DNA from: Eubacteriales bacterium
GTDB taxonomy: Bacteria; Bacillota; Clostridia; Lachnospirales; Lachnospiraceae
NCBI GenBank assembly: GCA_030524545.1
Contig: JAUNGM010000024.1
Location: 1 to 64,000 of the forward strand
DNA: 64,000 nt
Direction of reading: 5' to 3'
Shown: positions 1 to 50,959 of the stretch, in pieces
How the letters are laid out: each line of letters starts with the position of its first letter
Numbering within the stretch: position 1 is the stretch's first letter
Program-made: the position numbers and the translations under genes
Notes under the pieces: model-generated
The model's database searches: none
Told to the model about the DNA's origin: nothing
What the model saw: only the letters and a program-made list of their open reading frames with translations

Positions 1-2
1 TG

Positions 3-65
3 CTGGATACCCTCCTGGAGATCAGCGGGGAGCAGCCGGATTCGGCGGCGTCCGAACATGAGTAA
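3..65 (+). CDS. C-terminal end of an upstream ICE gene (partial)
   Basis: The window opens inside a gene. The frame starting at base 3 stays open for 20 codons and ends at TAA 63-65, overlapping the methyltransferase start by 8 bases. The tail is acidic and ends in ASEHE. Too little is present to name the product. In Tn1549-type elements this place belongs to the conjugation machinery, so a transfer gene is likely. The frame choice is an inference from its plausible composition and the overlap. Confidence 0.45.
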   Translation: MDTLLEISGEQPDSAASEHE

Positions 66-3050: not shown

Positions 3051-3094
3051 CGGGAACAGACAACACATTTTTATCGGAAAGGAGTTTTTTGATT

Positions 3095-3376
3095 ATGGCA
3101 ACTGTTGAGAAAATCCGCAATGATATTGCGAAAACGAAGGATAAGATCGCCGAGCTTCAGAAGAAGCAGCGGGCGTTGGAGGCCCAGCTTGCGGAGGAAG
3201 AAAACCTGGAGATCGTCCGCATGGTCAAGGCCGTGAAGATGGATAACCGGGAGCTGACCGCTTTCCTGAAAGCCTACGCCAGCGGCCTTATCACGCTGCC
3301 GGAGGATATGATGGCCGCAGACAGCGGCGCGGAGGTTGAGAATGAGGAAACGGAGGATTTTGAACATGAGGAATAA
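3095..3376 (+). CDS. DUF4315 family ICE protein
   Basis: A 93-residue soluble protein with a strongly helical N-terminal half ([22 protein letters not shown]), consistent with a coiled coil, then an acidic tail ending DFEHEE. This is the DUF4315 family found in Tn1549-type elements between the NlpC hydrolase and the DUF4366 protein. ATG 3095 is preferred over the TTG two codons earlier because it sits about 9 bases after a strong AAAGGAG. The 3' end overlaps the next gene by 11 bases. Function is unknown; the fixed position suggests an accessory role in mating-pair formation. Confidence 0.85.
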
Positions 3377-4511
3377 AGGAGGTTTGCGGCTGACCGCCGT
3401 TTTTCTGGCGCTCATGCTGTGCGTCACGACCTTTTCCATGACCGCTTTTGCCTATAGCGGCGGCGAAGGTGCCGAAGTCACCGGGGGCATGGAGTCCTCT
3501 GACAGTACGGAGGCGGACACGGAGGATACCAGGGATGATACCGACTCCCTGACCGATAAAGAAATTTCTGATCTGCTTTCTGCTCTGACCGGCGCCCAGA
3601 CAAATATCACCGTGACTGAGGATGGTGTTGAGATCACTTCCGATGATACGGAGAAAACGAACCGGAGTGGCACCGTGACCACCAACGGCGGACGGCTGAA
3701 TGTGCGGACCGGCGCGGGGCTGGACAACACGGCCTTTACCCAGCTTGAAAGCGGGGCGACCGTGGAGGTCATCGGCGAGGATGGCGACTGGATCAAGGTT
3801 CTTCTGCCGGAGCGTGTGGGCTATGTCCATTCGGACTATCTGACCATCAGCGAAACGGCAACCTCTGATGGAGGCAGCTTCTCCCTCTCCATCAGTGAGG
3901 ATGACATTTCTGCCCTGCTGGAGCTGTTCACGGGCAGCGGAGGCAGCGCCGCCCTTACCCCGGACGGGAACCTGTCGCTGATTGACGATATTGGCAGCAC
4001 CACGGCGGCGGGCAAGCAGTTCATTACTGTGGAGACCAAAAACGGCAACGTCTTTTACCTGATTATCGACCGGGACGATAAGGGAGAAGAAACCGTACAT
4101 TTCTTGAACCAGGTGGACGAGGCCGACCTTCTGGCACTGATGGAGGATGGCGAAACTGCCGCAGCAAACACCGCCATTGTCTGCACCTGTACGGATAAAT
4201 GTGTGGCTGGAGATGTAAATACCTCCTGTCCGGTGTGCAAAAACAACATGAGCGAATGTACCGGGAAGGAGGCAGCCGCCAGTACCGAGCCGGAGCCTGA
4301 CGAGCCGGAGGAACCCGCTACTGAAAAGAAAAGCGGAGCCGGGGCTATCCTTCTGGTGCTGCTGATCCTGGCAGCCGGTGGCGGCGCGGCGGCCTATTTC
4401 CTGGTGCTAAAACCGAAGCAGGGAAAGAAAGTACCGTCTGACCTGGACGATCTGGATTTGGAGGATGAAGAAGAATATCTGAATGAGGATGAAACGGAGG
4501 AAATGGAATGA
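3366..4511 (+). CDS. DUF4366 (CD1107-like) exported SH3b membrane protein
   Basis: A 381-residue exported protein. ATG 3366 follows CGGAGG and begins a clear signal peptide (MRNKGG, then a hydrophobic core ending TAFAYSG). An SH3b domain follows at roughly residues 100-165, with the typical LNVRTGAG and VGYVHSDYL stretches, suggesting cell-wall binding. A long Ser/Asp/Thr-rich region and a Cys cluster (CTCTDKC, CPVCKNN) precede one C-terminal membrane helix near residues 330-352 and a very acidic tail. The order is that of the DUF4366/CD1107 mobile-element family. It overlaps DUF4315 upstream and topoisomerase III (ATGA) downstream. A surface role in mating is inferred. Confidence 0.85.
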
Positions 4512-6592
4512 AGCTGATTATCTGTGAGAAACCGAGTGTAGCAAAAAGTATCGCGTCGGCCCTGGGTGTTACATCCAGGGCCGATGGCTTTTATGAGGGA
4601 AACGGGCTGATCGTTTCCTGGTGTGTGGGCCACCTGGTCTCCCCGCTGGACGCGGCGGGCTATGACGAGTCTTTCAAGAAGTGGCGCTATGATGACCTCC
4701 CGATCCTGCCGGAGCCCTTCCGCTATGTGACCGCTCCTGGCAAGGAGGACGCCTTTGAAAACCTCCGCTCCCTGATGGGCCGCCCGGATGTGGATACCGT
4801 GGTCAATGCCTGTGACGCGGGGCGCGAAGGGGAACTGATCTTCCGGCTGGTGTATGAAATGGCGGGCTGCCATAAGCCCATCCTTCGCCTCTGGATTTCC
4901 TCTATGGAGGATATGGCGATCCGGGAGGGCTTTTCTGATCTCCGGCCGGGCGTGGAGTATGAGGTCCTGTATCAATCGGCACTCTGCCGCCAGAAAGCGG
5001 ATTGGCTGGTGGGGATCAACGCCACCCGGCTTTTCTCCGTCCTCTACCACCGCACCCTGAACGTGGGGCGCGTCCAGACACCCACCCTGGCAATGCTGGC
5101 GGAGCGTGACGCAAGGATCAGCGGTTTCCAGAAAGAGAAATACCATCATGTGCGGCTGAAGGTGGGCGGTGCCGAGGCGGTTTCGGAAAAGATCACCGAT
5201 CCGGCGGAGGCAGAGCAGATAAAGACCGCCTGTGCCGGTGCGCCTGTGACCTGCACCTCTGTTTCCCGTGAACAGAAAAAGGAACAGCCCCCGAAGCTCT
5301 ATGACCTGACCACCTTGCAGCGGGAGGCAAACCGGATGTTCGGCTATACGGCGAAGCAGACGCTTGACTACGCCCAGAGCCTTTATGAAGCGAAGCTGCT
5401 GACCTATCCCCGGACGGACAGCCGGTATCTGACCTCTGATATGGCGGAAACGGCCTCCTGCGTCATCCACCTGGCGGCAAAGGTGCCGCCCTTTGACGGG
5501 TGCGCCAGCTTCTTCCCGCTGGTGGAACTTATGATTTCAGATAAGGACGTATCCGACCATCACGCCATCATCCCCACAATGGAGATTGAAAAAGCGGATA
5601 TCGGCGCCCTGCCCGTGGGCGAGCGCAACCTGCTTCTCCTGGTCTGCTGCAAGCTGCTGTGCGCGGCGGCGGAGCCTTATGTATATGAAACGGTCACGGC
5701 TACCTTCGACTGCGGCGGCCATTCCTTCACGGCGAAGGGAAAGCATATCCTCTCTGAAGGCTGGCGGGAGATCGACCGCATTTTCCGTTCTTTCTTGAAG
5801 GAGAAGCAGGCAGACGAAGGCAGCGGCGGCGATCTTCCCGCCTTTACCGAGGGCCAGGCCTTTGAGGATGTGGAGGCGGTTATCACGGAGCATTATACCT
5901 CTGCCCCCAAACCTTATACAGAAGATACCCTTCTGGCAGCTATGGAGCGGGCCGGTGCGGAGGATATCCCCGATGACGCGGAGCGCAAGGGCCTGGGGAC
6001 TCCTGCGACCAGGGCGGCGGTCATTGAAAAGCTGGTATCAGCCGGGTTCGTGGAGCGGAAAGAAAAAAGCCTGATCCCTACAAAAGCCGGGATCAACCTG
6101 GTGGCTGTGCTGCCGGAATCGCTGACCTCCCCCATGCTCACCGCTGAATGGGAGCAACGTCTTACGGCCATTGCAAAGGGCGAGGCCGATCCGGACAACT
6201 TTCTGGACGGTATCCGGGAGATGGTGCGGGATCTGGTTACAACCTACTCCCAGGTTTCGGAGGACGGACAAAAGCTGTTTGCCCCGGAGAAGGAAGTGAT
6301 CGGCATGTGTCCCCGCTGCGGCAAGCCGGTGTATGAGGGCAAGAAGAATTTTTCCTGTTCGGACCGGGCCTGTGGGTTCGTCCTCTGGAAGAATGACCGC
6401 TTCTGGACCTCTCGCAAGAAGGAACTGACAAAGAAGATGGCTTCTGACCTTCTGAAAAAGGGCCGCACCAATGTCAAGGGAATGTGGTCTGAAAAGAAGG
6501 GCTCCACCTATGACGCGGCGGTGATCCTGGACGACACGGGCGGCAAGTGTATCAATTTCAAGCTGGAATTTCCCAAACGGAAAAAGAAATAA
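4508..6592 (+). CDS. topB: DNA topoisomerase III (type IA) of the ICE
   Basis: A 694-residue type IA topoisomerase that cuts and passes single DNA strands, probably handling element DNA during transfer. Visible parts are the Toprim start [19 protein letters not shown], the acidic Toprim motif [25 protein letters not shown], and the active-site region [11 protein letters not shown] with Tyr300. A C-terminal [11 protein letters not shown]...CSDRACGF motif is a four-Cys zinc ribbon. Length and order match the TopB/TraE-like enzymes of Tn1549-type ICEs. It begins by ATGA overlap with DUF4366 and ends 14 bases before the ArdA gene. The host housekeeping topoisomerases are separate genes. Confidence 0.93.
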
Positions 6593-6606
6593 GGAGGTGT
6601 TCAACT

Positions 6607-8298
6607 ATGCCGGTGTATGGATATGACAAGGATTATCCCTTTGCCGCCTTCGTGACCAATCTTGGCAAATACAACGAGGGCGAGCTTGTGGGCGAGTGGG
6701 TGAAGTTTCCTACTACCGCCGAGGAAATGAAAAAGGTGTTTGACCGTATCGGGATCGGCCAGCCGGATGATTTCGGGCAGCCTTATGAGGAATGGTTCAT
6801 CACGGACTATGACTGTTATGTGGATGGCCTCTATGACAAGCTGGGTGAATACGAGAGCCTGGATGAATTGAATTATCTGGCGTCAAAGCTGGATGAAATG
6901 AGCCAGGGCGAGTATGAGCAGTTCCAGGCGGCTATGGAGATTGGCGACCATTCGGGCAGCGTCCAGGAGATTATCAATCTCACGGAAAACCTGGACTGCT
7001 ACGATGTGTACCCGGATATCCATGATTATGATGACCTGGGCCGGTATTACATTGACGAGCTGGACGCCATGCAGGTGCCGGAGCATTTGAAGAATTACAT
7101 TGACTATGAGGCATACGGCCGGGATGTGGCCCTGGAGGAAGGCGGCGACTTTACTGATCTGGGCTATGTCCGGGATACCGGCAGTTCCTTCCATGAGTAT
7201 TACGACGGGGAGCGTGGCAGCATCCCGGAGGAATACCGGGTGATGACCTTCCAGGATGACATCCCCGAAGAAGAATTGTCCGAGTGGGCTATGGATATCG
7301 CTTTCGATATGGACGAGTATTTCCGGCAGCAAGATCCGCAGTACGCGGCGGAGCACCCGGAGGCGCATGAGGCAAAAGAGGATATCTATGAAAACCTGAT
7401 GGCTGGGCAGATCGCCGCATTTGAAGAAAAGCTGGTCACTCTGGGGCAGACAACCGATGACTACCTCCCTTCGGAACTGGAAAAGTATAAGGAGGCTTCC
7501 GGGTATGAGGCTGCTTTGGATACCAGTATTGCGGAGGCTCAGGAGGAACCGGCCCAGGAGGACAGCTTTTCCATCTATCAGCTAAAGAGTGGGGATGAAA
7601 CGCTGGATTATCGTTTTGAGCCGCTGGACGCGATCCGGCGCAATGGTCTTTCTGTTGATCCGGCAAATTATGAGCTGGTCTATACGGCTCCGCTAACGGA
7701 ACGGGACAGCCTGGAGGGTATTTATACCCGGTTCAATGTGGACCGCCCGGCAGACTTCACGGGACACTCCCTGTCCGTATCGGATATTGTGGTACTTCAT
7801 CAGGATGGAACGGACACCGCCCATTATTGCGACCGCTTCGGGTTCTCCCAGGTGCCGGAGTTCCTGGAGCCGGAGCGGACGAAGGAGGTTACGATCCCCA
7901 CGCCGGACCAAATGGAGACCGGCAAAACGGTATGGACGCCCAGGGGCAGCTTCTATGTGACCGCCATGAGCCGGGAGCAGATGGAGGCAGCCGGATATGG
8001 CCTCCACCATCAGTCTGACGATAGGAAATACCTTATCATGGGAAATGGCACACGGGCCTTTGCTATCCTGGCGGAGCAGCCGGAAAAAGACAATCCCCTC
8101 CGCACCGCTGAAATGACCCTGGAGGATGACTATGGGATGATTGATGGAGTTATCAACAACGGCAGGCGCGGTGAAGAAGTGGAGAAAAAGCCTTCTATCC
8201 GGGAGCGGCTGGAGGACGCAAAGCGGGAATGTTCGGAACGCAAGCCCCCGGAGAAAGGGCGTCCCGGCCGTGAGGCCCCGGAGCATGGCGATCTATGA
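6607..8298 (+). CDS. ArdA antirestriction, YodL and DUF4316 fusion protein
   Basis: A 563-residue three-part ICE protein. Residues 1 to about 205 are ArdA-like: very acidic (many DYD, YDD and DELD stretches) and beginning YGYDKDYPFAAFVTNLGKY. ArdA proteins mimic B-form DNA and block type I restriction enzymes. A YodL-like domain follows (from FSIYQLKSG, about 318-420), then a DUF4316-type region (TPRGSFYVTAMSREQ). The tail is basic and Pro-rich. ATG 6607 is chosen because AAGGAGGT ends 7 bases upstream; the frame is open further upstream. It ends by ATGA overlap with the next small gene. Together with the methyltransferase it gives the element two anti-restriction functions. Confidence 0.87.
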   Translation: MPVYGYDKDYPFAAFVTNLGKYNEGELVGEWVKFPTTAEEMKKVFDRIGIGQPDDFGQPYEEWFITDYDCYVDGLYDKLGEYESLDELNYLASKLDEMSQGEYEQFQAAMEIGDHSGSVQEIINLTENLDCYDVYPDIHDYDDLGRYYIDELDAMQVPEHLKNYIDYEAYGRDVALEEGGDFTDLGYVRDTGSSFHEYYDGERGSIPEEYRVMTFQDDIPEEELSEWAMDIAFDMDEYFRQQDPQYAAEHPEAHEAKEDIYENLMAGQIAAFEEKLVTLGQTTDDYLPSELEKYKEASGYEAALDTSIAEAQEEPAQEDSFSIYQLKSGDETLDYRFEPLDAIRRNGLSVDPANYELVYTAPLTERDSLEGIYTRFNVDRPADFTGHSLSVSDIVVLHQDGTDTAHYCDRFGFSQVPEFLEPERTKEVTIPTPDQMETGKTVWTPRGSFYVTAMSREQMEAAGYGLHHQSDDRKYLIMGNGTRAFAILAEQPEKDNPLRTAEMTLEDDYGMIDGVINNGRRGEEVEKKPSIRERLEDAKRECSERKPPEKGRPGREAPEHGDL

Positions 8299-8477
8299 GC
8301 CGGAGTAAAAAATGGCGGCTGGAATGGTCCTTCTTCTTGGGTGAGAACGGCAGGCGGCAGTATAACAAGGTCTGCCATGGCTGCGCCCATGACTGCAAGC
8401 AGAGTTTCCGAGCAGTGCTGGTGTCCTGCCCCCATTACCTGTCAAGGCGCTCTAAAAACTGTAAGGATCAGGGTTGA
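8295..8477 (+). CDS. Small Cys-rich ICE protein
   Basis: A 60-residue basic protein starting by ATGA overlap with the ArdA-YodL gene. It contains CHGCAHDCKQ and a later VSCPHYLSRR, a Cys/His set that could bind a metal. Small proteins of this kind follow the ArdA/YodL gene in related elements, and the translational coupling supports expression. It is the last gene of the rightward operon, 123 bases before a strong terminator. No function is known; a small zinc or nucleic-acid-binding protein is possible. Confidence 0.65.
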   Translation: MSRSKKWRLEWSFFLGENGRRQYNKVCHGCAHDCKQSFRAVLVSCPHYLSRRSKNCKDQG

Positions 8478-8600
8478 AAATGGGGTGTAAAATCCTCTGT
8501 GTCGGCTTTTCAAAAGATGGCCTTTAGTTTTCCCACAGGAGGGGTTCGCTCTGAAACAGAAAGGAAAAATCTGATTTTCACACACTTCCTATAACACAAA

Positions 8601-8653
8601 GCGGGGGTACGGCTTCTCGGTTCGTCCGATTGGCTGTACTCCCGCTCTTTTTT
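8601..8653 (+). terminator. Terminator of the rightward ICE operon
   Basis: GCGGGGGTAC (8601-8610) pairs with GTACTCCCGC (8636-8645), with one G-T pair, and is followed by TCTTTTTTG. This is a strong rho-independent terminator at the end of the operon running from upstream of base 1 through the small Cys-rich gene. Confidence 0.85.
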
Positions 8654-8720
8654 GTTATTTTCTTTTATTTCTTTATGTCGGATAGGAACGGATAGGATGG
8701 ATATTCACAGCAGTAGGCGT

Positions 8721-8850
8721 TGTGGGAATGTGTGTAAACTGTCATGTATGCGGCGCTGTGGGAAACCTGTTTGCAGGCTGTGGGAAAGGGCCTGTCCTTT
8801 TCCATGGGCTGTGAATGGGTTTTCCATCGGCAAAGCGGCAGTTTTCCACA
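8721..8850. repeat. TGTGGGAA short repeats between operons
   Basis: The 217 bases between the operon terminator and the DUF6050 gene hold no gene. They contain TGTGGGAA three times in the same orientation (8721-8728, 8757-8764, 8779-8786) and a related TTTTCCACA in the opposite one (8842-8850). The spacing is irregular (36 then 22 bases). They look like protein-binding iterons and resemble degenerate DnaA boxes; a replication or maintenance role is only a guess. Confidence 0.35.
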
Positions 8851-8870
8851 TTTCCATGACGCAAAATCTT

Positions 8871-9203
8871 TTATCCAACGATAAGACGGTATGCGGTGAT
8901 AGGCACATAGCACACGGCCACGATCAGCCGCCATGCCAGAACGAAACCGCCGATCACGCCGCCGACGATGAAATTCAGCGCAAACAGCTCGATCACGCCC
9001 CCAAAGGAGCCGCCGCCCGGTATGAGCCAGAGGCACATCCGATGGAGACCGAAGGGCAGGCCGCAGAGTATCCAGAGCCACACATAGTCCAGTTGGCCAC
9101 CCTTCATACAGGCGGATTTGAAAATACAGTACAACAGCAGGGCCGCCACCACGGGTAGCACACTCTTAAAGAAAAATGCTTTGATTGCTTCACTTCTTGT
9201 CAT
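8871..9203 (-). CDS. DUF6050-like small membrane protein
   Basis: A 110-residue hydrophobic protein, opposite in direction to the transfer operon. It has an N-terminal MTRSEAIKAFFFK, then about three membrane segments (VLPVVAALLLYCIF, YVWLWILCGLPFG, FALNFIVGGVIGGFVLAW). GGAGG sits about 8 bases before the start. It matches small membrane proteins (DUF6050) seen next to relaxase genes in Tn1549-type elements. It starts 102 bases after the relaxase stop, so it may be the last gene of the mob operon. Function unknown. Confidence 0.65.
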   Translation of the reverse strand: MTRSEAIKAFFFKSVLPVVAALLLYCIFKSACMKGGQLDYVWLWILCGLPFGLHRMCLWLIPGGGSFGGVIELFALNFIVGGVIGGFVLAWRLIVAVCYVPITAYRLIVG

Positions 9204-9305
9204 AAGGGAAAACCTCCTTCCATGCCTCCATTATACAAAACGGTATGAGCGGCGCCCAGGGCGTACAGAAAATCATTTGCAAACAATCTGCGAACAGAGC
9301 CGGAT

Positions 9306-10649
9306 TTATTCAAGTTCATACCGCTTTTGCTGTTCCTGTTCCTTCGGGACAGAAAGCAGGGCGTCCACATTCTGCTTGATCGTTTCATACTCTGCGGCCT
9401 CGCTCCTGGCGGTCCGGTATTCGGCAAGCAGCGAGTCTTTCTTTGCGGTGAGTGCAGCCAGTTCTTTTTCCATACGATCCGCAGATGGCAGCGGAACGGC
9501 TCCCAGCTTCTTTAACTCCCTGGCGGCTGCTTCAAACAGGATGATCCCGGTCTCATGGCCCCGCATAAATTTCTCTTTATCTTTTGACTGGCGGTAACGG
9601 TCATAGAGCGGCTTTAAGCGGCGGTAAGTCCCAGCCTGCTTCATCACAAGGGACAGTTCAGCGATCCTGGCCTCCGTTTCCTTCATGGAGGCATGAGCGG
9701 TATCCCTTTTCTCTGTCATGGCGGCCAGCCTGCTTTCCAGTTCCCCATAGCTGTCAATGCCATGCTCCGTCAGGAAATTCATGGTTCTGGCGGCCTGTTT
9801 CAGATTGTTCAGCTTCGCCCAATGTGCGAAACCGGCGTTCTCCTGTGCTTTGATATTATTCTGGATATCAATGAGCAGGCTGATCCTTCCGTCATGCTGC
9901 TTCGGCTGCTTCGACGGCCTGGAGCGTCCGGCGATCCTGGCGGTAATGGCTTCCTCCGTGTAGTCCGCACCCAGGGTCTTCATACGGGTAAAGCGTTCCT
10001 GGTCCGAGGCCCGGCAGGAAACGTATTTCCCCCGCTTGATCTCGTATCCTTCCCTCTGCAGGCGGAGCAGCAAATCTTCAAAGTCGGCGGAGGCAGGGAT
10101 CAGCCGGTCGATGGTCGCTTTCAGCTTTGCCTTGTAGCTGGTTCCGGCCTGGGCTGCTTGGTGTTCAATGTAACTCTTTCCCTTGTCCTGTCCGGGGATG
10201 ATGACCGACAGGCCATGTTCTTTGCAAAGGCGGTCGCTGATGCGGCGGATGTAATGATAGCTCCGCTTATTGGAATGGTAGTGCTTGTGATCGGTGAAGC
10301 TGACCGCATTGAAAATCAGGTGGTTATGGATATGCCCCTTGTCTATGTGGGTGGTGAGGACAAATTCATATTTGCCGCCCAGGATTTCCTTTGCAAGCTG
10401 CATCCCGATCTCATGGGCTTCCTCCGGCGACACCTCCCCAGGCTCAAACGCCTGGATCAGATGGCGGCCCAGGTGGCTGCCCTTGTCAATGGCATGGCGA
10501 CGGGTCCAGGCAAATTCAATGTCCGCTGTTTCGGCGGTACAGCCATAGGAGGATACCAGGAGCTTCCCATCTGTTTTTTCCGGGTTGCAGATATAGTCAA
10601 TAGCCGCTTTCAGCGTTGACTTGATAGGATGCGTCTTTGTAACTGCCAT
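9306..10649 (-). CDS. MobP-type relaxase
   Basis: A 447-residue relaxase that would nick oriT, stay bound to the 5' end and lead the strand into the recipient. The N-terminal relaxase domain has Tyr19 in AIDYICNPEKT as the probable nicking residue and the metal-binding motif HIDKGHIHNHLIF (His101, 106, 108, 110). The C-terminal half is charged and helical, as in MobA/VirD2-family proteins. It runs leftward and overlaps mobC by 40 bases, so the two are translated together. Candidate oriT hairpins lie just upstream of mobC. Confidence 0.92.
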   Translation of the reverse strand: MAVTKTHPIKSTLKAAIDYICNPEKTDGKLLVSSYGCTAETADIEFAWTRRHAIDKGSHLGRHLIQAFEPGEVSPEEAHEIGMQLAKEILGGKYEFVLTTHIDKGHIHNHLIFNAVSFTDHKHYHSNKRSYHYIRRISDRLCKEHGLSVIIPGQDKGKSYIEHQAAQAGTSYKAKLKATIDRLIPASADFEDLLLRLQREGYEIKRGKYVSCRASDQERFTRMKTLGADYTEEAITARIAGRSRPSKQPKQHDGRISLLIDIQNNIKAQENAGFAHWAKLNNLKQAARTMNFLTEHGIDSYGELESRLAAMTEKRDTAHASMKETEARIAELSLVMKQAGTYRRLKPLYDRYRQSKDKEKFMRGHETGIILFEAAARELKKLGAVPLPSADRMEKELAALTAKKDSLLAEYRTARSEAAEYETIKQNVDALLSVPKEQEQQKRYELE

Positions 10650-10939
10650 ATCTGATCCAGCCTTTCCCGGATTTCCTCCAGATCCGCTTGATAGGCGGGG
10701 CCTCCGGCGTTGAGCCTCTTTGCGATCTGGTTGATATTCCGGCCGATGGCGGAAAGCTCCGAGGTAAACGCCTTAATATCCGCCGTGTCGGTGTAGATGA
10801 TATATCCGTCAATCGCCATCTTCCGAAGATAGGCACCATAGCGTCTTGTGTGGAGTTGGGCCATCTTCTCGTCAATGAGGCGCTTTTCTTCTTCTGTAAC
10901 CCAGAATTTCATCTGGATATTCCGTTTTCGGTTTGCCAT
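10610..10939 (-). CDS. mobC: MobC-type relaxosome accessory protein
   Basis: A 109-residue basic protein of the bacterial mobilization (MobC) family. MANRKRNIQMKFWVTEEEKRLIDEKM resembles the ribbon-helix-helix-like start of these proteins, and LSAIGRNINQIAKRLN is the family signature in the second half. It helps the relaxase recognise and melt oriT. GGAGG lies 6 bases before ATG 10939, preferred over an in-frame start at 11005 that lacks a comparable site. It overlaps the relaxase gene by 40 bases. Confidence 0.87.
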   Translation of the reverse strand: MANRKRNIQMKFWVTEEEKRLIDEKMAQLHTRRYGAYLRKMAIDGYIIYTDTADIKAFTSELSAIGRNINQIAKRLNAGGPAYQADLEEIRERLDQIWQLQRRILSSQR

Positions 10940-10965
10940 GCGCCGCCTCCGTTTCTCATAAGGGT

Positions 10966-11049
10966 TTGGGATTATCCCAACAAGCATTTTTACATTTTCG
11001 GGCAAGGGACCTGAAAATAGGAAAAATCCGCAAGTGGGTACTCACTTGC
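10966..11049. other. Candidate oriT with two hairpins
   Basis: Two inverted repeats lie just upstream of mobC: TTGGG-ATTAT-CCCAA (10966-10980) and GCAAGTG-GGTACT-CACTTGC (11030-11049). Transfer origins of MobP systems usually sit next to the mob genes and contain such hairpins next to the nick. The exact nick site cannot be read from sequence alone. Confidence 0.45.
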
Positions 11050-11170
11050 TGTGCTTGCTATCGTTTCTTTCTTCGTACCTAAGTAATACCAAAACCTTCA
11101 CTTTGGCTACCAAATGGCAAAGAAAAAGCTATAAATTTTGAATACCGTATTTTGTGAAGCGGTGTTCCTG

Positions 11171-11199
11171 TTGACATTTTCCAAAAACAAGGCTATAAT
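11171..11199 (+). promoter_or_regulatory. Consensus sigma-A promoter of ribU
   Basis: TTGACA (11171-11176), a 17-base spacer and TATAAT (11194-11199): both hexamers are perfect consensus. Transcription would start near 11206, just before the FMN riboswitch. So strong a promoter implies that control is exerted after initiation, by the riboswitch. Confidence 0.85.
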
Positions 11200-11224
11200 A
11201 ATTGACGACAACTAAATAAAATGA

Positions 11225-11336
11225 ATGTCTTCAAGGCAGGGTGAAATTCCCGATCGGCGGTAAAGTCCGCGAGCGTGAAAATGCTGATTTGGTGAAAGTC
11301 CAAAACCGACAGTATAGTCTGGATTAAAGAAGGTGT
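11225..11336 (+). ncRNA. FMN riboswitch (RFN element)
   Basis: The segment carries the FMN-aptamer core in order: AGGCAGGGTGAAATTCCCG, ATCGGCGGTAAAGTCCGCGAGC, TTTGGTGAAAGTCC, AAAACCGACAGT and TAGTCTGGAT, closed by a short CTTC/GAAG stem. The aptamer binds flavin mononucleotide. It lies between a consensus promoter and ribU with a terminator before the gene, the standard arrangement for shutting off riboflavin uptake when FMN is plentiful. Confidence 0.95.
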
Positions 11337-11471
11337 ATTGAATTTGTTAGAATCATTCTGACAATATGCACTTTTCTGTCTATCTGATAAATGCTTTGTT
11401 GACATTTTCAATACACCTTAAAAATCATAACACCTAAAGGCATTACATTGCTTTTAGGTGTTAATTTTTTT
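11330..11471 (+). terminator. Riboswitch expression platform with terminator
   Basis: A 13-base perfect inverted repeat, AAGGTGTATTGAA (11330-11342) with TTCAATACACCTT (11407-11419), starts at the 3' edge of the aptamer. Next is a terminator, AACACCTAAA (11429-11438) with TTTAGGTGTT (11453-11462), followed by a run of seven T. AGGTGT in the first repeat can also pair with the ACACCT of the terminator's left arm, giving alternative folds. The ribU ribosome binding site TGGAGG follows the T run directly. Confidence 0.8.
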
Positions 11472-11486
11472 GGAGGTGTATTCACG

Positions 11487-12134
11487 ATGAATGACAAAAC
11501 AAAGAAACTTACAACCGTAGGTATGCTCTGCGCCCTTGCCTATGTTGTAGCGGCAGTTGGGCGTATCCCCCTTGTACTCTTTTTGAAGTATGATCCTAAA
11601 GACGTTATCATTGCAATTAGTGGACTGATTTTTGGCCCTCTCACTTCATTTCTCATTGCTTTTATTGTTTCCTTAGCAGAAATGGTTACCATCAGTGAAA
11701 ATGGCATTATAGGATGTTTAATGAATATCATTTCAAGTTGCTCCTTTGCGTGTACCGCTGCATTTATTTACAGCAAAAAGCGCAAACTATCAGGTGCTAT
11801 TGGTGGACTATTTTGTGGTTGGGGTTGTCAAATTGTAGTTATGCTACTTTGGAATTATTTGATTACTCCTATCTATATGGGCTATCCGAGAGAAGCGGTC
11901 GTAGAGTTACTAATTCCAGCATTCCTGCCTTTTAACTTGATTAAGGGCGGATTAAATGCGTCAATTACTATGCTATTATATAAACCTGTCGTTACAGCTT
12001 TGCGACGCTCCCGTTTAATTGAAACTACTCAAATGGCAGAAAAAAGTCGATTGAAAGTAGGTGTTATCTTAGTAGCTCTGTTAATAATCATAACTTGCAC
12101 ATTGTTTATATTCACCCTTAAAGGTGTATTTTGA
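11487..12134 (+). CDS. ribU: Riboflavin ECF transporter S component RibU (ICE cargo)
   Basis: A 215-residue hydrophobic protein with about six membrane helices, of the ECF-transporter substrate-binding (S component) type. Features are the N-terminal KKLTTVGMLCALAYVV, the KYDPKDVIIAISGLIFGP stretch characteristic of RibU, and LPFNLIKGGLNASI near the C-terminus. The upstream FMN riboswitch makes riboflavin the likely substrate. No ECF ATPases or T component are nearby, so it would use the host's shared energising module. ATG 11487 follows GGAGG. The gene is much more AT-rich than the ICE around it, indicating separate acquisition. It occupies the tet(M) position of Tn916-like elements. Confidence 0.9.
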   Translation: MNDKTKKLTTVGMLCALAYVVAAVGRIPLVLFLKYDPKDVIIAISGLIFGPLTSFLIAFIVSLAEMVTISENGIIGCLMNIISSCSFACTAAFIYSKKRKLSGAIGGLFCGWGCQIVVMLLWNYLITPIYMGYPREAVVELLIPAFLPFNLIKGGLNASITMLLYKPVVTALRRSRLIETTQMAEKSRLKVGVILVALLIIITCTLFIFTLKGVF

Positions 12135-12243
12135 GCTAATAGGAAGTTACTCAAAACTGACATTAGTAAATTGCAAGTAAAATGCCACTGGGGCAAAGCC
12201 AGACGATTAACGCAGAGCTGTGCCATTTATCGGAGGTGGAAAA

Positions 12244-12417
12244 ATGAGTGACAATCCAAAAGGTTCTCTGTGGATACATTGTCCAATCTGCGGAGGAAAA
12301 ACAAGAACAAAGGTGTATGCGGATACCGTACTCGTGAAGTTTCCGTTGTACTGCCCTAAATGCAAAAAAGAAATTCGGGTGGATGTTGTGCAACTGAAAA
12401 TGGTATTGAGCAAATGA
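12244..12417 (+). CDS. Cysteine-rich KTR protein (Tn916 orf6-like)
   Basis: A 57-residue protein with two Cys pairs, HCPICGGKTRTKVY and YCPKCKKEIRV, which should form one zinc ribbon. It matches the Cys-rich KTR family found after tetracycline-resistance genes in Tn916-like elements. ATG 12244 follows CGGAGG. It is 109 bases downstream of ribU on the same strand with no obvious promoter of its own, so it probably relies on ribU readthrough. Its role is unknown. Confidence 0.85.
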   Translation: MSDNPKGSLWIHCPICGGKTRTKVYADTVLVKFPLYCPKCKKEIRVDVVQLKMVLSK

Positions 12418-12434
12418 GCCAGACACAAAAAGTG

Positions 12435-12485
12435 CAGAGCCAGCTTCCCATTCCTTAGACATGGAGAAACTGGCTCTGTTTCATT
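12435..12485 (+). terminator. Terminator between KTR and XRE genes
   Basis: CAGAGCCAG (12435-12443) pairs perfectly with CTGGCTCTG (12470-12478), followed by a modest T tract (TTTCATT). It lies between the convergent KTR and XRE genes and could stop transcription from either side. The weak T tract suggests that ribU-KTR transcripts could partly read through. Confidence 0.6.
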
Positions 12486-12831
12486 CAATAGGTGTTGCGT
12501 TTTGGTTGCGCAGGGCAGAAAGTACGGCTTGAAAGATCGGAATGATAGAAGCAGCTTCTTCCTCGCTGCAATCCTCGATCAGTAATCTAAGCTGACGGAG
12601 CGCAGGCGCCTCTCTGCACATTTCCGGATTGAAGATTTCTCTGGCATCTATTTTCAGAACACGTACCAGAGGATAAAGGACCTCCATCTTTGGATTTCCT
12701 TTGTAGTTCTCAATATTCAAAACGGTACGGACATCAATATCTGCTGCGTCGGCTACTTCGTTCTGTGTAAGACCTAATTTTCCGCGGGCACGCTTTATAG
12801 TATCACCTAATGGACGAGAGTATTCAGGCAT
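12481..12831 (-). CDS. XRE-family repressor (Tn916 orf9-like)
   Basis: A 116-residue regulator with an N-terminal helix-turn-helix (LGDTIKRARGKLGLTQNEVADAADIDVRTVLNIENYKGNPK), then a helical C-terminal part. It is encoded opposite to its neighbours, exactly where Tn916 carries orf9, the repressor of the orf7 promoter. By analogy it should bind the divergent region 12832-12941 and silence the sigma-like factor, HTH_16, xis and int genes. Transcription coming from ribU would run antisense through it. Confidence 0.85.
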   Translation of the reverse strand: MPEYSRPLGDTIKRARGKLGLTQNEVADAADIDVRTVLNIENYKGNPKMEVLYPLVRVLKIDAREIFNPEMCREAPALRQLRLLIEDCSEEEAASIIPIFQAVLSALRNQNATPIE

Positions 12832-12941
12832 CGCAATTCACCCCCTAAATATTCTACAATACACCTCGTTTCGATTGAATTCGTCACGGTTCACCTCTTT
12901 ACTGTATTTAGATACATATTAAAGGTGAAGGGGGCTTCAGC
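12832..12941. promoter_or_regulatory. Divergent control region of the ICE regulatory block
   Basis: This noncoding stretch separates the leftward repressor from the rightward regulatory genes. It contains the inverted repeat TTCACCT (12890-12896) and AGGTGAA (12923-12929), spaced about three helical turns and flanking an AT-rich core (TTTAGATACATATT). This is a reasonable operator for the XRE protein. Promoter hexamers are not clear enough to place. Confidence 0.45.
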
Positions 12942-13096: not shown

Positions 13097-13243
13097 GTTT
13101 TATGCAGGTCTCCATCATATAGCGGAGCCTTTCATAAAAATTTTCTTCCCTCTGCGGTTGCCAAAATCGCAGACCTTGCATTACTGAGGCGAAAGGGAGG
13201 AAGTCACCACCCCGCACCTGCGGGCGCGAAGGGAGGTGAGAAA

Positions 13244-13678
13244 ATGAAAGACTCCTATGAGCAGCGTATTCAAAATCAGTTTGGCGCTTTTTGTGTCAAG
13301 GTTTTGAAGAATGAGGCCAGGTATATCCAACGGGAATATACCCGATTCCGGGATCAGGAAAAATCCCTAGGCGAGCTAACAGCTTCCGAACTGGAGCAGA
13401 CCGCCGTATGGGACAAGCATTTCATGGACGAGCATGTCTTTGAAGTGCTGGGGCTCCCGGTCGTCGTGACCGGCGATCTTCTGGCCGACGCTCTGGCGCA
13501 GTTGCCGGAGGGCAAGCGGGATGTGATCCTGCTGTCCTACTTTCTGGGCATGACGGACCGTGAGATCAGCGAAAAGCTGAACATCGTCCATCAGACCGTA
13601 TCGAAACGGCGCCTTACTACGCTGAAAGAATTGCGCGAATATCTGATGAAGGAGGGATTTGAATGGCCGGACAAGTGA
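13244..13678 (+). CDS. Sigma-70 family-like factor (Tn916 orf7-like)
   Basis: A 144-residue protein with a clear C-terminal sigma region 4: LAQLPEGKRDVILLSYFLGMTDREISEKLNIVHQTVSKRRLTTLKELREYL, a helix-turn-helix that contacts -35 elements. The N-terminal part is short and lacks an obvious region 2, as in Tn916 Orf7. ATG 13244 follows GGGAGGTGAG; the open frame runs further upstream but without support. It overlaps the HTH_16 gene by 16 bases. In Tn916 Orf7 and Orf8 activate xis-int expression, and the same is expected here. Confidence 0.87.
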   Translation: MKDSYEQRIQNQFGAFCVKVLKNEARYIQREYTRFRDQEKSLGELTASELEQTAVWDKHFMDEHVFEVLGLPVVVTGDLLADALAQLPEGKRDVILLSYFLGMTDREISEKLNIVHQTVSKRRLTTLKELREYLMKEGFEWPDK

Positions 13679-13902
13679 AACCTATCCCGGTGCCTGTGAT
13701 CCTGGCAGCCGTGAACGGCGACGAGGACGCCCTTGCCGCCGTGGTCGCTCACTATCAGAAGTACATCCGGGCTCTTGCCACCAGGCCGCTGAAGGACGAA
13801 TACGGGAATACATACCTGTATGTCGATGAAGATATGCGGCTCAGACTGGAAACGAAGCTGATCCACAGCATCGTGACGGGCTTTAAGGTGCTGCCGGTCT
13901 AA
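13663..13902 (+). CDS. HTH_16 helix-turn-helix protein (Tn916 orf8-like)
   Basis: A 79-residue protein (PVILAAVNGDEDALAAVVAHYQKYIRALATR, then DEDMRLRLETKLIHSIVTGF) of the HTH_16 family, which pairs with the small sigma-like factor in Tn916-like elements. The sequence resembles a sigma region 2-like fragment, so the two proteins may act together as a split sigma factor. It starts inside the sigma-like gene, so translation is coupled. Confidence 0.85.
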   Translation: MAGQVKPIPVPVILAAVNGDEDALAAVVAHYQKYIRALATRPLKDEYGNTYLYVDEDMRLRLETKLIHSIVTGFKVLPV

Positions 13903-14302
13903 AACCTGCGGGGCAAGTTTCTCTCCCTTTCCTTGCTCCAACGGTCCGGCATTGAATTGAAGCTCCATGCTCTTTGAAAAAGAAAGCCCGATGGGAGGCC
14001 ATCGGTGCAGTATAAGGCAGACGGATACATTCTGTCCTGTACCGAGCCATACGGCCGGTGCGCCATGACCTCCCTCCTGGGAGCGAGCGATCCACACCAG
14101 GCCGCAAAGCGGGCGTGGCAGCCTGCGGGCGGGGACGTACAGGCAGGTCAAAGATACTCGCGCGTTGAACGCCCACAAAGCATTGCGCGCCGCACCCATC
14201 AGCATGGGCCGGGGTGAGATTCCCGTGGAGCTGTGCCAGCAGCCGTCCGTTTTTGCCTCTTTCATTCGTTTTTCTGTTTACGGATAAATCGTAAACTTTT
14301 TA
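13903..14302 (+). ncRNA. GC-rich structured noncoding region, possible RNA
   Basis: About 400 bases without a convincing gene lie between the HTH_16 gene and xis. They hold many local hairpins: GATGG-GAGG-CCATC near 14000, CTCCC-TCCT-GGGAG near 14070, GCCTG with CAGGC near 14120-14150, CCCAT-CAGC-ATGGG near 14200. GTTTACG-GATAAAT-CGTAAAC (14276-14296) is followed by TTTTTAATT, a terminator. ACGGC near 14050 can also pair with GCCGT near 14243. The region is on the sense side of the regulatory operon and is much more GC-rich than the bases just before xis. It matches no RNA family I can name. Confidence 0.4.
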
Positions 14303-14391
14303 ATTAGCAGCAGACAAATTAAAAACGGCGCGGTAAAATGATGGTAGGAAGTCATTTGTTCGTGCCGTTTCTGCATAGAAAGGGGGTTCTC

Positions 14392-14598
14392 ATGTCACAG
14401 ACATGGAACGGCACGAAGAAGGAAAACCCTGAACGGAGAACCTACACAGTGGAGGATATCGCTCAAATCTTAGGAATTGGCCGGACCTCTGCATATATTC
14501 TCGTAAAAGAGGGGCACTTCAAAATCGTGCGAATTGGTAACGCCATACGAGTTTCTAAGCGGTCCTTTGACGAGTGGCTTGATTCACTCGATCTCTGA
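14392..14598 (+). CDS. xis: Excisionase (HTH_17, MerR-like DNA binding)
   Basis: A 68-residue DNA-binding protein with YTVEDIAQILGIGRTSAYILVKEGHFKIVRIGNAIRVSKRSFDEWL, the helix-turn-helix/wing of the excisionase-type HTH_17 family. It directs the integrase towards excision by bending att DNA. ATG 14392 follows AGGGGG; the frame is open upstream to 14338 without a better start. It lies 22 bases before int, as in Tn916. Confidence 0.9.
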   Translation: MSQTWNGTKKENPERRTYTVEDIAQILGIGRTSAYILVKEGHFKIVRIGNAIRVSKRSFDEWLDSLDL

Positions 14599-14620
14599 CC
14601 ATTAGAAAGGAAGTACCGAT

Positions 14621-16021
14621 ATGGCATCTATTATCAAACGTAAAAAGAATTATTCTGTTGTTTACAACTATGTTGACGAGAACGGAGAAACAAAACAGAA
14701 ATGGGAAACCTGGCGTACCCATAAGGAAGCTCTGAAACGCAAGGCTGAGATTGAAAATCAGCAGTACACAGGGACCTTCCTGCCTCCGAGCAATCAAAAG
14801 ATATCCGAGTTCCTGTATGACTTCGTTTCCCTCTATGGGGAAAAGAAGTGGGGCGTCTCTATGTATGACAGCCAAACGGCCTTGATTGCCAACTATATCA
14901 ATCCAATCATCGGTGACATGGAGGTTCAGGCGGTTACGCCTCGTGTAGTGGACAGCTACATTCAGACTTTGCAGAAAACGAAGTCTGTTTCCACTAAGAC
15001 GCGGAAAGCAACTACCACCTATGTCAGCGACAAGACGATTGAGAAAATTATCAAGCTCCTGCGCTGTGCATTTAAGCAGGCGGTCCGCTGGGAGATTATT
15101 GGCAGAAATCCTTTTGACAATGTGATCCTTCCCAAAACGGAGTACAAGAAGCGGGATATCTGGGACGCGGATATGATCCGTACTGCCCTGGATAAGTGTA
15201 CGGACAGCAAGCTCTATGTGGCAATGAACCTTTCCTTTGCCTGCTCCCTGCGTATGGGTGAAATCCTGGGCCTGACCTGGAATAACGTCCATATCTCTGA
15301 TGAAGATATTGCGGCGGATAACGCCTATGTCTATATCGACAAGGAGCTGACACGGGCATCCAAACGGGCGATTGAGACCCTGGGCGAGAAGGATATCTAT
15401 TATATCTTTACTCCGCTCATGCCGAACACCAGCACAAGGCTGATCCTGAAAAAGCCAAAGACTGATTCCAGTATCCGCAAGGTGTGGCTGCCGAAAACGC
15501 TTGCCCACATTCTGCGGGAATGGAAGAAGGCCCAGGACGAACTGAGAGGCTTTCTGGGGGACGAATATCAGGACTTCAATCTTGTTGTGGCGCTGCCCAA
15601 TGGCCGCCCCTGTGAGGACCGTATCATTCTGAAAGAGTTTTCCAAACTCCGTGAAGAAGCAGGATTGCCCAGAGTAGTTTTCCATTCCCTCCGTCATTCC
15701 AGCACCACCTACAAGCTGAAATTGAACCACGGCGATCTGAAGGCCACCCAGGGTGACACGGGCCATGCGGAGATTGATATGATTACCAGCATCTACGCTC
15801 ACATTCTGGACGAGGACAGAAAGGTCAACGCCCAGAAGTTTGAGAGTGCCTTTTACTCCAATCCCGATTTGCGCGGGGTGCGCCCTCCAGAGGAACCAAA
15901 GGAGCCGGAACCGGCGCCCATCGACCTTGCAAGTCTGGTGGAGCAGCTTCAAAAATCACCGGAGCTGGCAAGCGCTCTGGCCGCACTGATTGCGCAGCAG
16001 GCACAACCAGCCAGCAAGTAG
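14621..16021 (+). CDS. int: Tyrosine-recombinase integrase of the ICE
   Basis: A 466-residue site-specific recombinase. The N-terminal arm-binding domain (MASIIKRKKNYSVVYNYVDENG) is followed by a SAM-like core-binding domain (about 60-165) and the catalytic domain, with Arg211 (SLRMGE), His355-x-x-Arg358 (HSLRHSS), His382 (GHAE) and nucleophile Tyr392 (SIYAHI). The Pro-rich tail (PEEPKEPEPAP) and Ala-rich end extend past the usual family length. Its end is about 200 bases from the tRNA-Arg gene, the expected attachment site. GAAAGGAAG precedes the start. Confidence 0.94.
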   Translation: MASIIKRKKNYSVVYNYVDENGETKQKWETWRTHKEALKRKAEIENQQYTGTFLPPSNQKISEFLYDFVSLYGEKKWGVSMYDSQTALIANYINPIIGDMEVQAVTPRVVDSYIQTLQKTKSVSTKTRKATTTYVSDKTIEKIIKLLRCAFKQAVRWEIIGRNPFDNVILPKTEYKKRDIWDADMIRTALDKCTDSKLYVAMNLSFACSLRMGEILGLTWNNVHISDEDIAADNAYVYIDKELTRASKRAIETLGEKDIYYIFTPLMPNTSTRLILKKPKTDSSIRKVWLPKTLAHILREWKKAQDELRGFLGDEYQDFNLVVALPNGRPCEDRIILKEFSKLREEAGLPRVVFHSLRHSSTTYKLKLNHGDLKATQGDTGHAEIDMITSIYAHILDEDRKVNAQKFESAFYSNPDLRGVRPPEEPKEPEPAPIDLASLVEQLQKSPELASALAALIAQQAQPASK

Positions 16022-16217: not shown

Positions 16218-16294
16218 TGGCGTCCCCGGGCAGATTCGAACTGCCGGCCTTTCGCTTAGGAGGCGAACGCTCTATCCTGCTGAGCTACGGAGAC
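16218..16294 (-). tRNA. tRNA-Arg (anticodon CCU), intact
   Basis: On the minus strand the sequence folds as a full tRNA: acceptor GTCTCCG with CGGGGAC, D arm AGCTCAGCAGGATAGAGC, anticodon stem TTCGC/GCGAA with loop CTCCTAA (anticodon CCU, reading AGG), T arm GGCAGTTCGAATCTGCC, discriminator G and an encoded CCA (16218-16220). Its 3' end faces the ICE and it has its own terminator. The core CGCTTAGGAGGCGAA (plus strand 16253-16267) recurs in a tRNA remnant at 16345. The gene probably came with the element, or is rebuilt by it, to compensate for the split host tRNA. Confidence 0.93.
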
Positions 16295-16340: not shown

Positions 16341-16386
16341 CTGCCGCTTAGGAGGCGAATGCTCTATCCAGCTGAGCTATGCCGAC
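16341..16386 (-). pseudogene. tRNA-Arg(CCU) remnant, 5' part
   Basis: Minus strand: GTCGGCATAGCTCAGCTGGA and onward reads as acceptor 5' strand, D arm and anticodon arm with CCU. After CTCCTAAGC it jumps to GGCAGTTCG, a fragment of a T arm, and ends. The 3' acceptor strand is absent, so no functional tRNA can form. It shares 15 bases with the intact gene around the anticodon (16345-16359), marking an old attachment junction. Confidence 0.8.
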
Positions 16387-16530
16387 ATACGATTTTTGGC
16401 TTAAAATAAGGCTTTTCGGGCCTTTTTGCCTCGGAATCGATAACCGATTTTTTTCTATTTTCAGCCGATATTTTTTTCGGCGAAAATGCTATTTGCGTCC
16501 TCTGTAGCACTTGGCTATTTCTAATCAAAA

Positions 16531-16585: not shown

Positions 16586-16594
16586 AGGTCCCCC

Positions 16595-16634
16595 CTTAGG
16601 AGGCGCTTGTTTTATCCGTTAAACTAACAGAACC
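16595..16634 (-). pseudogene. Host tRNA-Arg(CCU) 5' half, split at the anticodon
   Basis: Minus strand: GGTTCTGTTAGTTTAACGGA and onward is the 5' half of a tRNA (acceptor strand, D arm, anticodon arm with CCU) up to CCTCCTAAG, after which the tRNA sequence stops. It differs from the other two copies outside the core and lies next to host genes, so it is best read as the original host gene cut by the first integration. The matching 3' half is not in the window. Confidence 0.75.
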
Positions 16635-19642: not shown

Positions 19643-20572
19643 TTAATGAATGGATTCAAACAGGTCAATAATTCGTTCCAGTTCATCCTTAGAATAATAT
19701 TCTATTTCAATCTTACCTTTATTGTTCTTCTTTCTGTGAATAAATACTCTCGTTCCCATGATTCCTTTCATTTTTTCCTCCAGGCTCTCATAGATAGCGT
19801 CTTCCGCCGTATTACTCACAAATTCTTTTTTCTTCGGAGGTTCTAAAACATGCTTTACAAGACGTTCTGTTTCTCTGACACTCAATTTTTCATCAAAAAT
19901 CTTCATTGCCAGATTGTATTGTGTATCTCCATCGGAAATTGAAAGAATCGCTCTTGCATGTCCCGCTGAAAGCATGTCATCAATCAACATCTGCTGTACT
20001 CTTTCATCCAGCTTCAAAAGACGCATGGAATTTGTAACAGCCGTTCTGCTTCTGGACACTCTCTCAGCAATTTCATCCTGCTTCAAATGAAATTCTTCCA
20101 ACAAACGTCTGTAAGCCATTGCTTCTTCAATAGGATTCAGATCCTCTCTCTGAATATTTTCAATCAGAGAAATTTCCACAACCTCCTGATCATTAAACTC
20201 CTTGACCAAAACCGGTACTTCCTTCAACCCGGCGATTTTCGCTGCCCTCCACCGCCGCTCTCCTGCTATAATCTCATAATAATCCTTTTTATCGGACACT
20301 AATAACGGTTGTAATATACCGTACTGTTTAATGGACTCTGACAATTCCAGAAGGGCATCTTCATTAAACTGTTTTCGCGGCTGACTTCTGTTAGGTTCAA
20401 CCTTTGAAATTTTTACAAGCAATTCCGCGCTCTTTGGGAGAACTGCTTCTTCCCTTTTATTTACTTCAGGCTTTTCCTTGGGAGTTCCTGTTGTTTTTTC
20501 CTTGTTCTGGGGGGATTTATCCGGAAATAATGCATCAAGTCCCCTGCCAAGTCCTGATTTCTTTGCTGCCAT
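19643..20572 (-). CDS. parB: Chromosome-partitioning protein ParB (Spo0J)
   Basis: A 309-residue CTP-dependent DNA clamp that loads at parS and spreads to organise the origin. The N-terminal ParB/Srx domain has the CTP-binding stretch (GERRWRAAKIAGLKEVPV), followed by the helix-turn-helix (LKQDEIAERVSRSRTAVTNSMRLLKLD) and a C-terminal dimerisation domain (IEYYSKDELERIIDLFESIH). The basic N-terminus GLGRGLDALF binds ParA. parS sites lie 0.8-2.9 kb away. Its start overlaps the parA stop (TAATG). Confidence 0.97.
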   Translation of the reverse strand: MAAKKSGLGRGLDALFPDKSPQNKEKTTGTPKEKPEVNKREEAVLPKSAELLVKISKVEPNRSQPRKQFNEDALLELSESIKQYGILQPLLVSDKKDYYEIIAGERRWRAAKIAGLKEVPVLVKEFNDQEVVEISLIENIQREDLNPIEEAMAYRRLLEEFHLKQDEIAERVSRSRTAVTNSMRLLKLDERVQQMLIDDMLSAGHARAILSISDGDTQYNLAMKIFDEKLSVRETERLVKHVLEPPKKKEFVSNTAEDAIYESLEEKMKGIMGTRVFIHRKKNNKGKIEIEYYSKDELERIIDLFESIH

Positions 20573-50855: not shown

Positions 50856-50959
50856 CCTTTTATTCAGAGTGGTGGAGATACAAAGGATCTGTGAAGCCAC
50901 GGCAACCCCTTAGAGGTAAGGAAGGTGCCAACCTGAGCGAGTAATCGAACAATAAGAGG
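50856..50959 (+). ncRNA. SAM-I riboswitch (S-box) of metK
   Basis: The closing stem pairs CCTTTTATT (50856-50864) with AATAAGAGG (50951-50959). Inside are the S-box phrases CAGAGTGGTGGAG, TGAAGCC-CGGCAACC (here with an extra A) and AAGGTGCCAACCTG. The RNA binds S-adenosylmethionine, the product of the gene it precedes. Confidence 0.9.

Follow-up and report, generated by a model that had tools for sequence, protein, structure and literature searches.

A predicted FMN-riboswitch-controlled RibU gene in the accessory slot of a Tn1549-type element of Lachnospiraceae

The accessory slot of Tn916 and Tn1549 elements is chiefly known for the resistance genes that it carries, and the relaxase of Tn916 is of the MOBT type. 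As references we employed the tet(M) element of pCF10, which we take to be Tn925 of the Tn916 family, and the vanB element of pMG2200, presumably of the Tn1549 type. In pCF10 (NC_006827), whose record is typed MOBP,MOBT in agreement with MOBT for the Tn916 type, tet(M) is followed by a KTR gene, an opposing XRE gene, sigma, HTH, xis and int. In pMG2200 (E. faecalis, NC_011642), relaxase, mobC and regulators precede the vanB operon, which is followed by sigma, HTH, xis and int. The resistance cargo in the compared slots is thus tet(M) in one case and vanB in the other.

Here we analyze the window, a stretch of 64,000 nucleotides from a Lachnospiraceae genome, in which an ICE carries a promoter, an FMN riboswitch and a RibU-type gene in the corresponding slot. 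We consider it likely that a Tn1549-type ICE at a tRNA-Arg(CCT) gene by serS took up this promoter-riboswitch-ribU cassette, and that the cassette gives a riboflavin-auxotrophic host extra, self-switching uptake.

Backbone, control block and integration site

The right-hand part of a Tn1549-type backbone was recognized at positions 1-11005 from protein families and from comparison with the vanB element. It comprises a C-5 cytosine methylase (58-1080), a C40/NlpC (NlpC/P60) peptidase (1077-3050), a DUF4315-like frame (3089-3376; so labelled by its position relative to locus L181), CD1107-like (3336-4511), topoisomerase III (4508-6592) and ArdA/YodL/DUF4316 (6547-8298) frames and, on the reverse strand, a MobA/VirD2-like relaxase (PF03432; 9306-10649) and MobC (10610-11005). 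Identities to the pMG2200 proteins are 57% over 439 aa for the relaxase, 61% for MobC, 64% for topoisomerase III, 61% for the C40 peptidase and 56% for the CD1107-like protein. The gene order is also that of pMG2200, except that riboswitch and ribU stand in place of the vanB operon, that KTR and opposing XRE genes lie on the int side of the cargo and that a tRNA-Arg gene lies beside int; the integrases are only 25% identical.

A relaxase more than 40% identical marks the Tn1549 family in the available part of PMC7168690, and the window relaxase lies above this value; the cargo slot between mobC and sigma-HTH-xis-int is likewise that of the family. VirB4 and coupling protein, for which the family definition also sets more than 40% identity, were compared in a sister ICE (L232), where VirB4 is 67% identical to that of pMG2200 and the coupling protein 73% identical to one in Vescimonas. 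Since the window relaxase is of the MobA/VirD2-like type and accompanied by MobC, it differs from the MOBT relaxases of the Tn916 family. Next to mobC, a hairpin cluster at 10950-11060 (DNA fold z -5.4, five-sequence alignment) is conserved in sister ICEs and in locus L006, and represents a candidate oriT, which would directly adjoin the cargo slot.

Beyond the cargo lies a block consisting of a Cys-rich KTR protein (PF14205; 12244-12417), an XRE regulator (12481-12831), a sigma-70 region-4 protein (13244-13678), an HTH_16 protein (PF12645; 13663-13902), xis (TIGR01764; 14392-14598) and a tyrosine integrase (int, 14621-16021), all on the forward strand with the exception of the XRE gene. The original prediction had given this order and these strands, and had equated the ribU slot with that of tet(M); both points are borne out. 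Indeed, the window follows the pCF10 order from cargo to int, with counterparts of the KTR and XRE genes in that element, and the flanking genes align with its control block at 27-53% identity (KTR 53% over 43 aa, XRE 44% over 64 aa, sigma 31%, HTH_16 43%, xis 29%, int 27%). The block adjoins the cargo, as is characteristic of the Tn916 family. The analogy to Tn916 thus holds for the right-hand regulatory block and the tet(M)-equivalent slot, but not for the conjugation backbone, which differs from the module of the tet(M)-bearing pCF10 element and is of the Tn1549 type, with vanB in the slot. The association of a Tn916-like right block with a Tn1549-like transfer backbone points to an accessory slot common to both. 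A pemK RNA motif (RF02913; 14148-14228, forward strand; 37.4 bits versus a cut-off of 34.8) lies between HTH_16 and xis; the motif is also found downstream of HTH_16 in L006 (3143-3240) and may belong to ICE regulation.

The presumed attachment site is a tRNA-Arg (CCT) gene at 16218-16294 on the reverse strand, next to a frame read as serS. Two partial copies of its D-arm-to-anticodon part (16345-16389 and 16592-16617) stand in tandem with it between int and serS, and several sister and congener loci match the same pieces. This arrangement suggests that elements have integrated repeatedly at a hotspot, or that the copies are att repeats in which crossover takes place close to the anticodon loop. 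On the chromosome side, a SAM riboswitch (RF00162, 73 bits) is located at 50857-50958. The GC skew reverses near 38 kb and a ParB-like frame was read at 19643-20572, which suggests that a replication origin is close.

The same locus was compared in congeneric species, in 14 serS stretches of 3.6-15 kb whose serS is 93-97% identical to that of the window. A tRNA-Arg gene was found by ARAGORN in 12 of the 14 and an ICE with a related integrase in two (L200, L206); ribU was present in none, which rules against its being a core gene of the insertion site in congeneric species. In L206 (G416, reverse, 1-7711), a different ICE with KTR, XRE, sigma, HTH_16, xis and int lies at tRNA-Arg/serS, and its cargo was read from the sequence as an ABC transporter and a MATE-type exporter.

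Slot contents and the riboswitch-ribU cassette

To trace sister ICEs, a sample of 299 family genomes was searched for integrases close to that of the window. Six were counted (L147-L151 and L180), namely those in which the retrieved sequence extends from mobC, or part of it, to xis/int. Their integrases are 93% (L147-L150) and 84% (L151) identical to that of the window, the L180 int being broken, and their relaxases 70-82% in the four pieces that contain one (L147-L149, L151). A tRNA-Arg gene lies near int in L148-L150, with serS seen in L149 and L150. Nucleotide homology with the window ends at 11060-11069 and restarts at 13969-13974, and none of the six carries ribU in the slot. Cargo was read gene by gene in L147, L148, L151 and a further piece, L146, that is without its mobC side; Pfam searches covered four L147 and two L146 proteins. 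The L147 slot holds a two-component system (response regulator and histidine kinase), an FtsX-type ABC transporter and a VanY-type carboxypeptidase, and that of L151, as read from sequences, an AraC-type regulator, an ECF module and two ABC exporters. The proposal that ribU replaces a resistance gene is not borne out: the sister ICEs that were read carry other cargo, and no sign of a displaced resistance gene was seen.

In the window, the space between mobC and its hairpins and the sigma/HTH_16/xis/int genes would have been filled by a compact cassette of a mostly non-ICE kind. Its composition is distinct, with a GC content of 37.1% (11168-12134) compared to 55.9% and 51.8% in the surrounding ICE (1-11069 and 13136-16021, respectively) and 40.9% on the chromosome side (17000-64000). 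The KTR/XRE stretch (12135-12900), at 44.3%, is also AT-richer than the backbone. The cassette begins with a sigma-70-type promoter, TTGACA-17-TATAAT, at 11171-11199 (12 of 12 consensus matches, 17-base spacer), followed by an FMN aptamer at 11223-11338, an intrinsic terminator at 11428-11471, consisting of a 15-pair stem-loop (11428-11463) and a T-run (11465-11471), and ribU at 11487-12134, all on the forward strand. These features lie at 11171-12134 as originally described, with coordinates exact to the base. The aptamer matches the RF00050 covariance model over its full length (model positions 1-138 of 138) at 112.2 bits (gathering score 66.2; E 2.5e-25), and an FMN aptamer was present in all eight top ribU loci scanned.

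The expression platform (11339-11486) has a predicted folding energy of -45.7 kcal/mol (z -7.1). Switching segments were located at 11330-11419 on the forward strand: AAGGTGTATTGAA (11330-11342), which overlaps the 3' strand of P1, and its complement TTCAATACACCTT (11407-11419). In an alignment of 12 leaders, from the window and 11 other loci, these two segments can pair over at least 13 bases in 10, G-U pairs being allowed. In the folded platform, TTCAATACACCTT alternatively pairs with the Shine-Dalgarno region, lengthening the terminator stem. The terminator is well maintained across the alignment, with 96.7% of cells paired, and compensatory changes were seen at three of its pairs, in one leader each, where shuffled alignments lead one to expect 0.6 and slid versions all gave 0. 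All eight P1 pairs are invariant in the 12 leaders, and thus speak for conservation only and lend no covariation support to the pairing. A further segment of the platform, TTGACATTTT (11399-11408), is the same in each of the 12 leaders. It looks like a -35 box, and the GACATT within it is complementary to AATGTC on the 5' side of P1.

The simplest reading of the leader is an FMN-off switch that acts through termination and Shine-Dalgarno occlusion. When FMN is scarce, the leader would permit transcription and translation of ribU. With FMN bound, P1 would keep the first GGUGU segment, and the downstream AAUACACC would be freed and lengthen the terminator stem across the Shine-Dalgarno sequence, turning expression off. 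The proposed alternative pairing leaves the 15-pair terminator hairpin itself intact.

Distribution of the cassette and the need of the host

A tblastn-confirmed scan of a GTDB-based genome collection identified 338 relatives, the best 80 of which (55-90% identity) were used. The neighbourhoods of L004-L011 were read by eye and the remaining loci were assessed by an ICE-protein panel alone. A panel protein matched in the fetched flank of six of these best 80 of 338, and none in the other 74, many flanks being short because they end with the contig. In L006, the cassette matches window positions 11168-12134 at 89.8% nucleotide identity and is bordered by an XRE gene on the reverse strand and the mobC-side hairpin region on its 5' side, and by sigma, HTH_16 and the pemK RNA on its 3' side. 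The L006 sigma protein is only 35% identical to that of the window, indicating the same slot in a different ICE. The cassette thus occupies this ICE slot at two of 81 loci (the window and the best 80 of 338). FMN-riboswitch ribU genes of Lachnospiraceae outside ICEs reach 89.7% nucleotide identity over the cassette and 90% identity at the protein level.

A tree of 82 rows was calculated from 75 of the 80 loci, the window, four of five congener copies and two host copies, leaving out rows with stops, X or short matches, L008 among them. The window RibU falls into a six-row clade (support 100/99) with L004, L005, L006, L007 and L011, set apart from the four congener copies and from the two other RibU of the host. 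Within it, L006 is placed with L004 and L005 (99/80) rather than with the window. This is in line with two captures, although the fork that separates the window is weak (96/58). In six of 14 loci compared, the match to the window starts at 11162-11171, shortly before the -35 box, and ends at 12134-12142, at the stop codon; in the other eight it is shorter. The separate acquisition of the cargo, as originally predicted, is corroborated by its composition, by the tree and by the 14 congener sites without ribU. L004 has a serine-recombinase context; since L005 shares its ribU locus (99% over 1.7 kb), it is taken here for a recombinase-adjacent site rather than for established cargo.

A phage route for the cassette is unsupported by searches of phages and viral contigs. 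The IMG/VR scan for the cassette gave 15 pattern stretches, none of them a relative, and no occurrence of the exact leader pattern; ribU matched eight phage records by tblastn, all below 60% identity, and the ICE backbone (1-11000) had no near match among phages. For the integrase, one viral contig matched at 62%. Nine plasmid records carry a ribU relative, one of them above 60% identity, and 14 have DNA similarity to the query, none covering 80% of it.

The original prediction held that the element benefits hosts deficient in riboflavin, and the host genome was checked for synthesis genes. The search covered lumazine synthase (RibH, PF00885) and DHBP synthase (PF00926); both were found in all 14 control genomes and neither in the host assembly (76 contigs, 99.97% complete, 2.46% contamination), which makes the host very probably a riboflavin auxotroph. 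RibU would work as the substrate-binding subunit of an ECF importer together with EcfA-EcfA'-EcfT of the host. Indeed, the host has an EcfT (PF02361) in a cluster read as ecfA, ecfA, ecfT, truA and rplM, and the S component of the window thus has a likely partner. The host also has two further FMN riboswitches, each ahead of a RibU-type gene (on C21 and C7) whose best solved relative is 3p5n, so that the ICE gene would be a third importer and not the sole one. Among 64 members of the genus, this ribU type (E 1e-40 or better) occurs in six including the host, the other five at 50-61% identity, and lumazine synthase occurs in 17; RibH is present in 0 of the 6 genomes with this ribU type versus 17 of the 58 others, a difference that is not significant (p 0.18). 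The absence of two synthesis enzymes speaks for the proposed benefit; the two other ribU genes and the lack of a significant link to RibH absence in the genus speak against it.

The available part of a 2026 preprint (PMC12934955) gives 49% predicted riboflavin auxotrophs among Lachnospiraceae and reports a second to fourth ribU paralog in some of them, suggesting that extra copies are not unusual in themselves; in the main text of the version available, the word 'conjugative' is absent.

Two other ribU genes under FMN riboswitches also speak for the rival reading that the cassette is a neutral passenger, captured by chance in an ICE remnant without secretion genes and of no effect since two copies suffice. 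The state of the element can be read in the same way, as can the 74 of the best 80 of 338 related loci in whose retrieved flank the ICE panel had no match. Position 1 of the window is also the first base of contig C35, which begins within the element, just before the methylase gene and approximately 100 bases past the point where VirB4 ends in L232. A 7.9-kb transfer-region query from L232 matched the host assembly only in another ICE on C70 (six pieces, 67-72% nucleotide identity), and VirB4 of pMG2200 matched only C70 (53%) and C10 (31%). The type IV secretion genes of the window ICE were thus not found in the assembly, and either the element is truncated or its assembly is incomplete. Against a neutral passenger, the ribU frame is undamaged and conserved, as are its promoter, aptamer and platform; the same slot is used in two different ICE lineages; and int, xis, relaxase and mobC each retain an open frame. 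On balance, we regard a neutral passenger as unlikely.

C70 was considered as the missing left half of the window ICE and discarded, since by reading it has C40-type and topoisomerase genes of its own. It represents a second Tn1549-like ICE of the host genome (C70 1-20000, L227), with one TAG within the VirB4 match, and reverse-transcriptase-like frames were read near the start of the contig.

We thus favor the uptake of a real, probably functional metabolic cargo. The comparisons show the anatomy of the cassette, its homology, the equivalence of the slots, the absence of two synthesis enzymes and the presence of an EcfT gene; the last two make the importer plausibly useful to this host. For a bacterium unable to make riboflavin, the cargo would add uptake capacity that shuts itself off; FMN switching, a gain in fitness and present mobility of the element are predictions of this reading.

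Substrate of the importer and comparison with known systems

The product of ribU, of 215 aa, was assigned as a riboflavin-type ECF S component on the basis of Pfam, solved relatives and fold. It matches PF12822 (2e-20) and PF07155 (6e-8); in NCBIfam, no model reached its cut-off, a FolT-family match remaining below threshold and no riboflavin model matching. Its significant solved relatives by sequence are RibU only, namely Thermotoga maritima RibU and the riboflavin uptake protein 3p5n (8.8e-16 to 6.4e-13). The AlphaFold model (mean pLDDT 83.8) was compared by Foldseek and gave a target TM of 0.93 to TmRibU versus 0.45-0.73 to S components for thiamine, folate, biotin, pantothenate and others, so that the nearest solved S component by both sequence and fold is RibU. 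At the C terminus, residues 191-211 form an additional hydrophobic helix, which falls beyond the part aligned by sequence with RibU (3-176) and is missing from the C21 RibU of the host. In a protein alignment of 30 rows, this extension was seen in all 29 aligned members of the class, and not in the C21 RibU.

The extra helix, together with the low identity to the C21 protein (27-29%), the lack of a match between the C7 RibU and the window RibU at E 1e-3, and the NCBIfam result, could indicate that the window S component, controlled by FMN, imports a different substrate such as some other flavin or an analogue of one. This is set against the conservation of the FMN riboswitch alongside the gene and the clear gap, in sequence and fold, between the solved RibU and the thiamine, folate, biotin and pantothenate S components, and we consider a substrate other than riboflavin improbable. 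Riboflavin is thus the predicted substrate, as judged from sequence and model. That a chromosomal ribU piece was misjoined into the ICE during assembly, as a draft of 76 contigs with 2.46% contamination and the sharp composition change at the cassette might suggest, is most improbable, since ICE genes flank the cassette on one contig, serS is 93-97% identical to that of congeners and L006, from an independent assembly, has the cassette in the same slot.

Uptake of a regulated riboflavin importer by the ICE, the reading favored here, would imply that vehicles known for resistance genes can also move nutritional traits, in a family for which a large share of riboflavin auxotrophs is predicted (49%, in the available part of PMC12934955). 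It offers a testable idea of why these elements are maintained in the absence of antibiotics, and an instance of cargo whose control travels along and needs no host regulator. Tentatively, and with more doubt than confidence, one may extend it to ICEs of gut Lachnospiraceae as vitamin-uptake vehicles, in which a promoter-riboswitch-ribU cassette of approximately 1 kb was loaded at least twice beside the transfer origin, in the slot that holds vanB or tet(M) in clinical relatives. Because the riboswitch senses a universal cofactor, such cargo would be correctly regulated in any recipient, and the RibU class with a seventh helix might be a distinct high-capacity or Ecf-promiscuous form.

The available part of PMC6907783 lists vitamin B biosynthesis genes among the gene families enriched in gut mobile elements. 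A search of titles and abstract starts, with most subscription journals outside its scope, yielded no description of a riboswitch-controlled vitamin importer carried by an ICE in this slot. From the sequence comparisons, the element appears best described as a Tn1549-type ICE with a Tn916-like KTR/XRE arrangement. Riboswitch, RibU and ICE are each of an already known kind, and what appears new is their combination in the slot that holds vanB in pMG2200 and tet(M) in pCF10.
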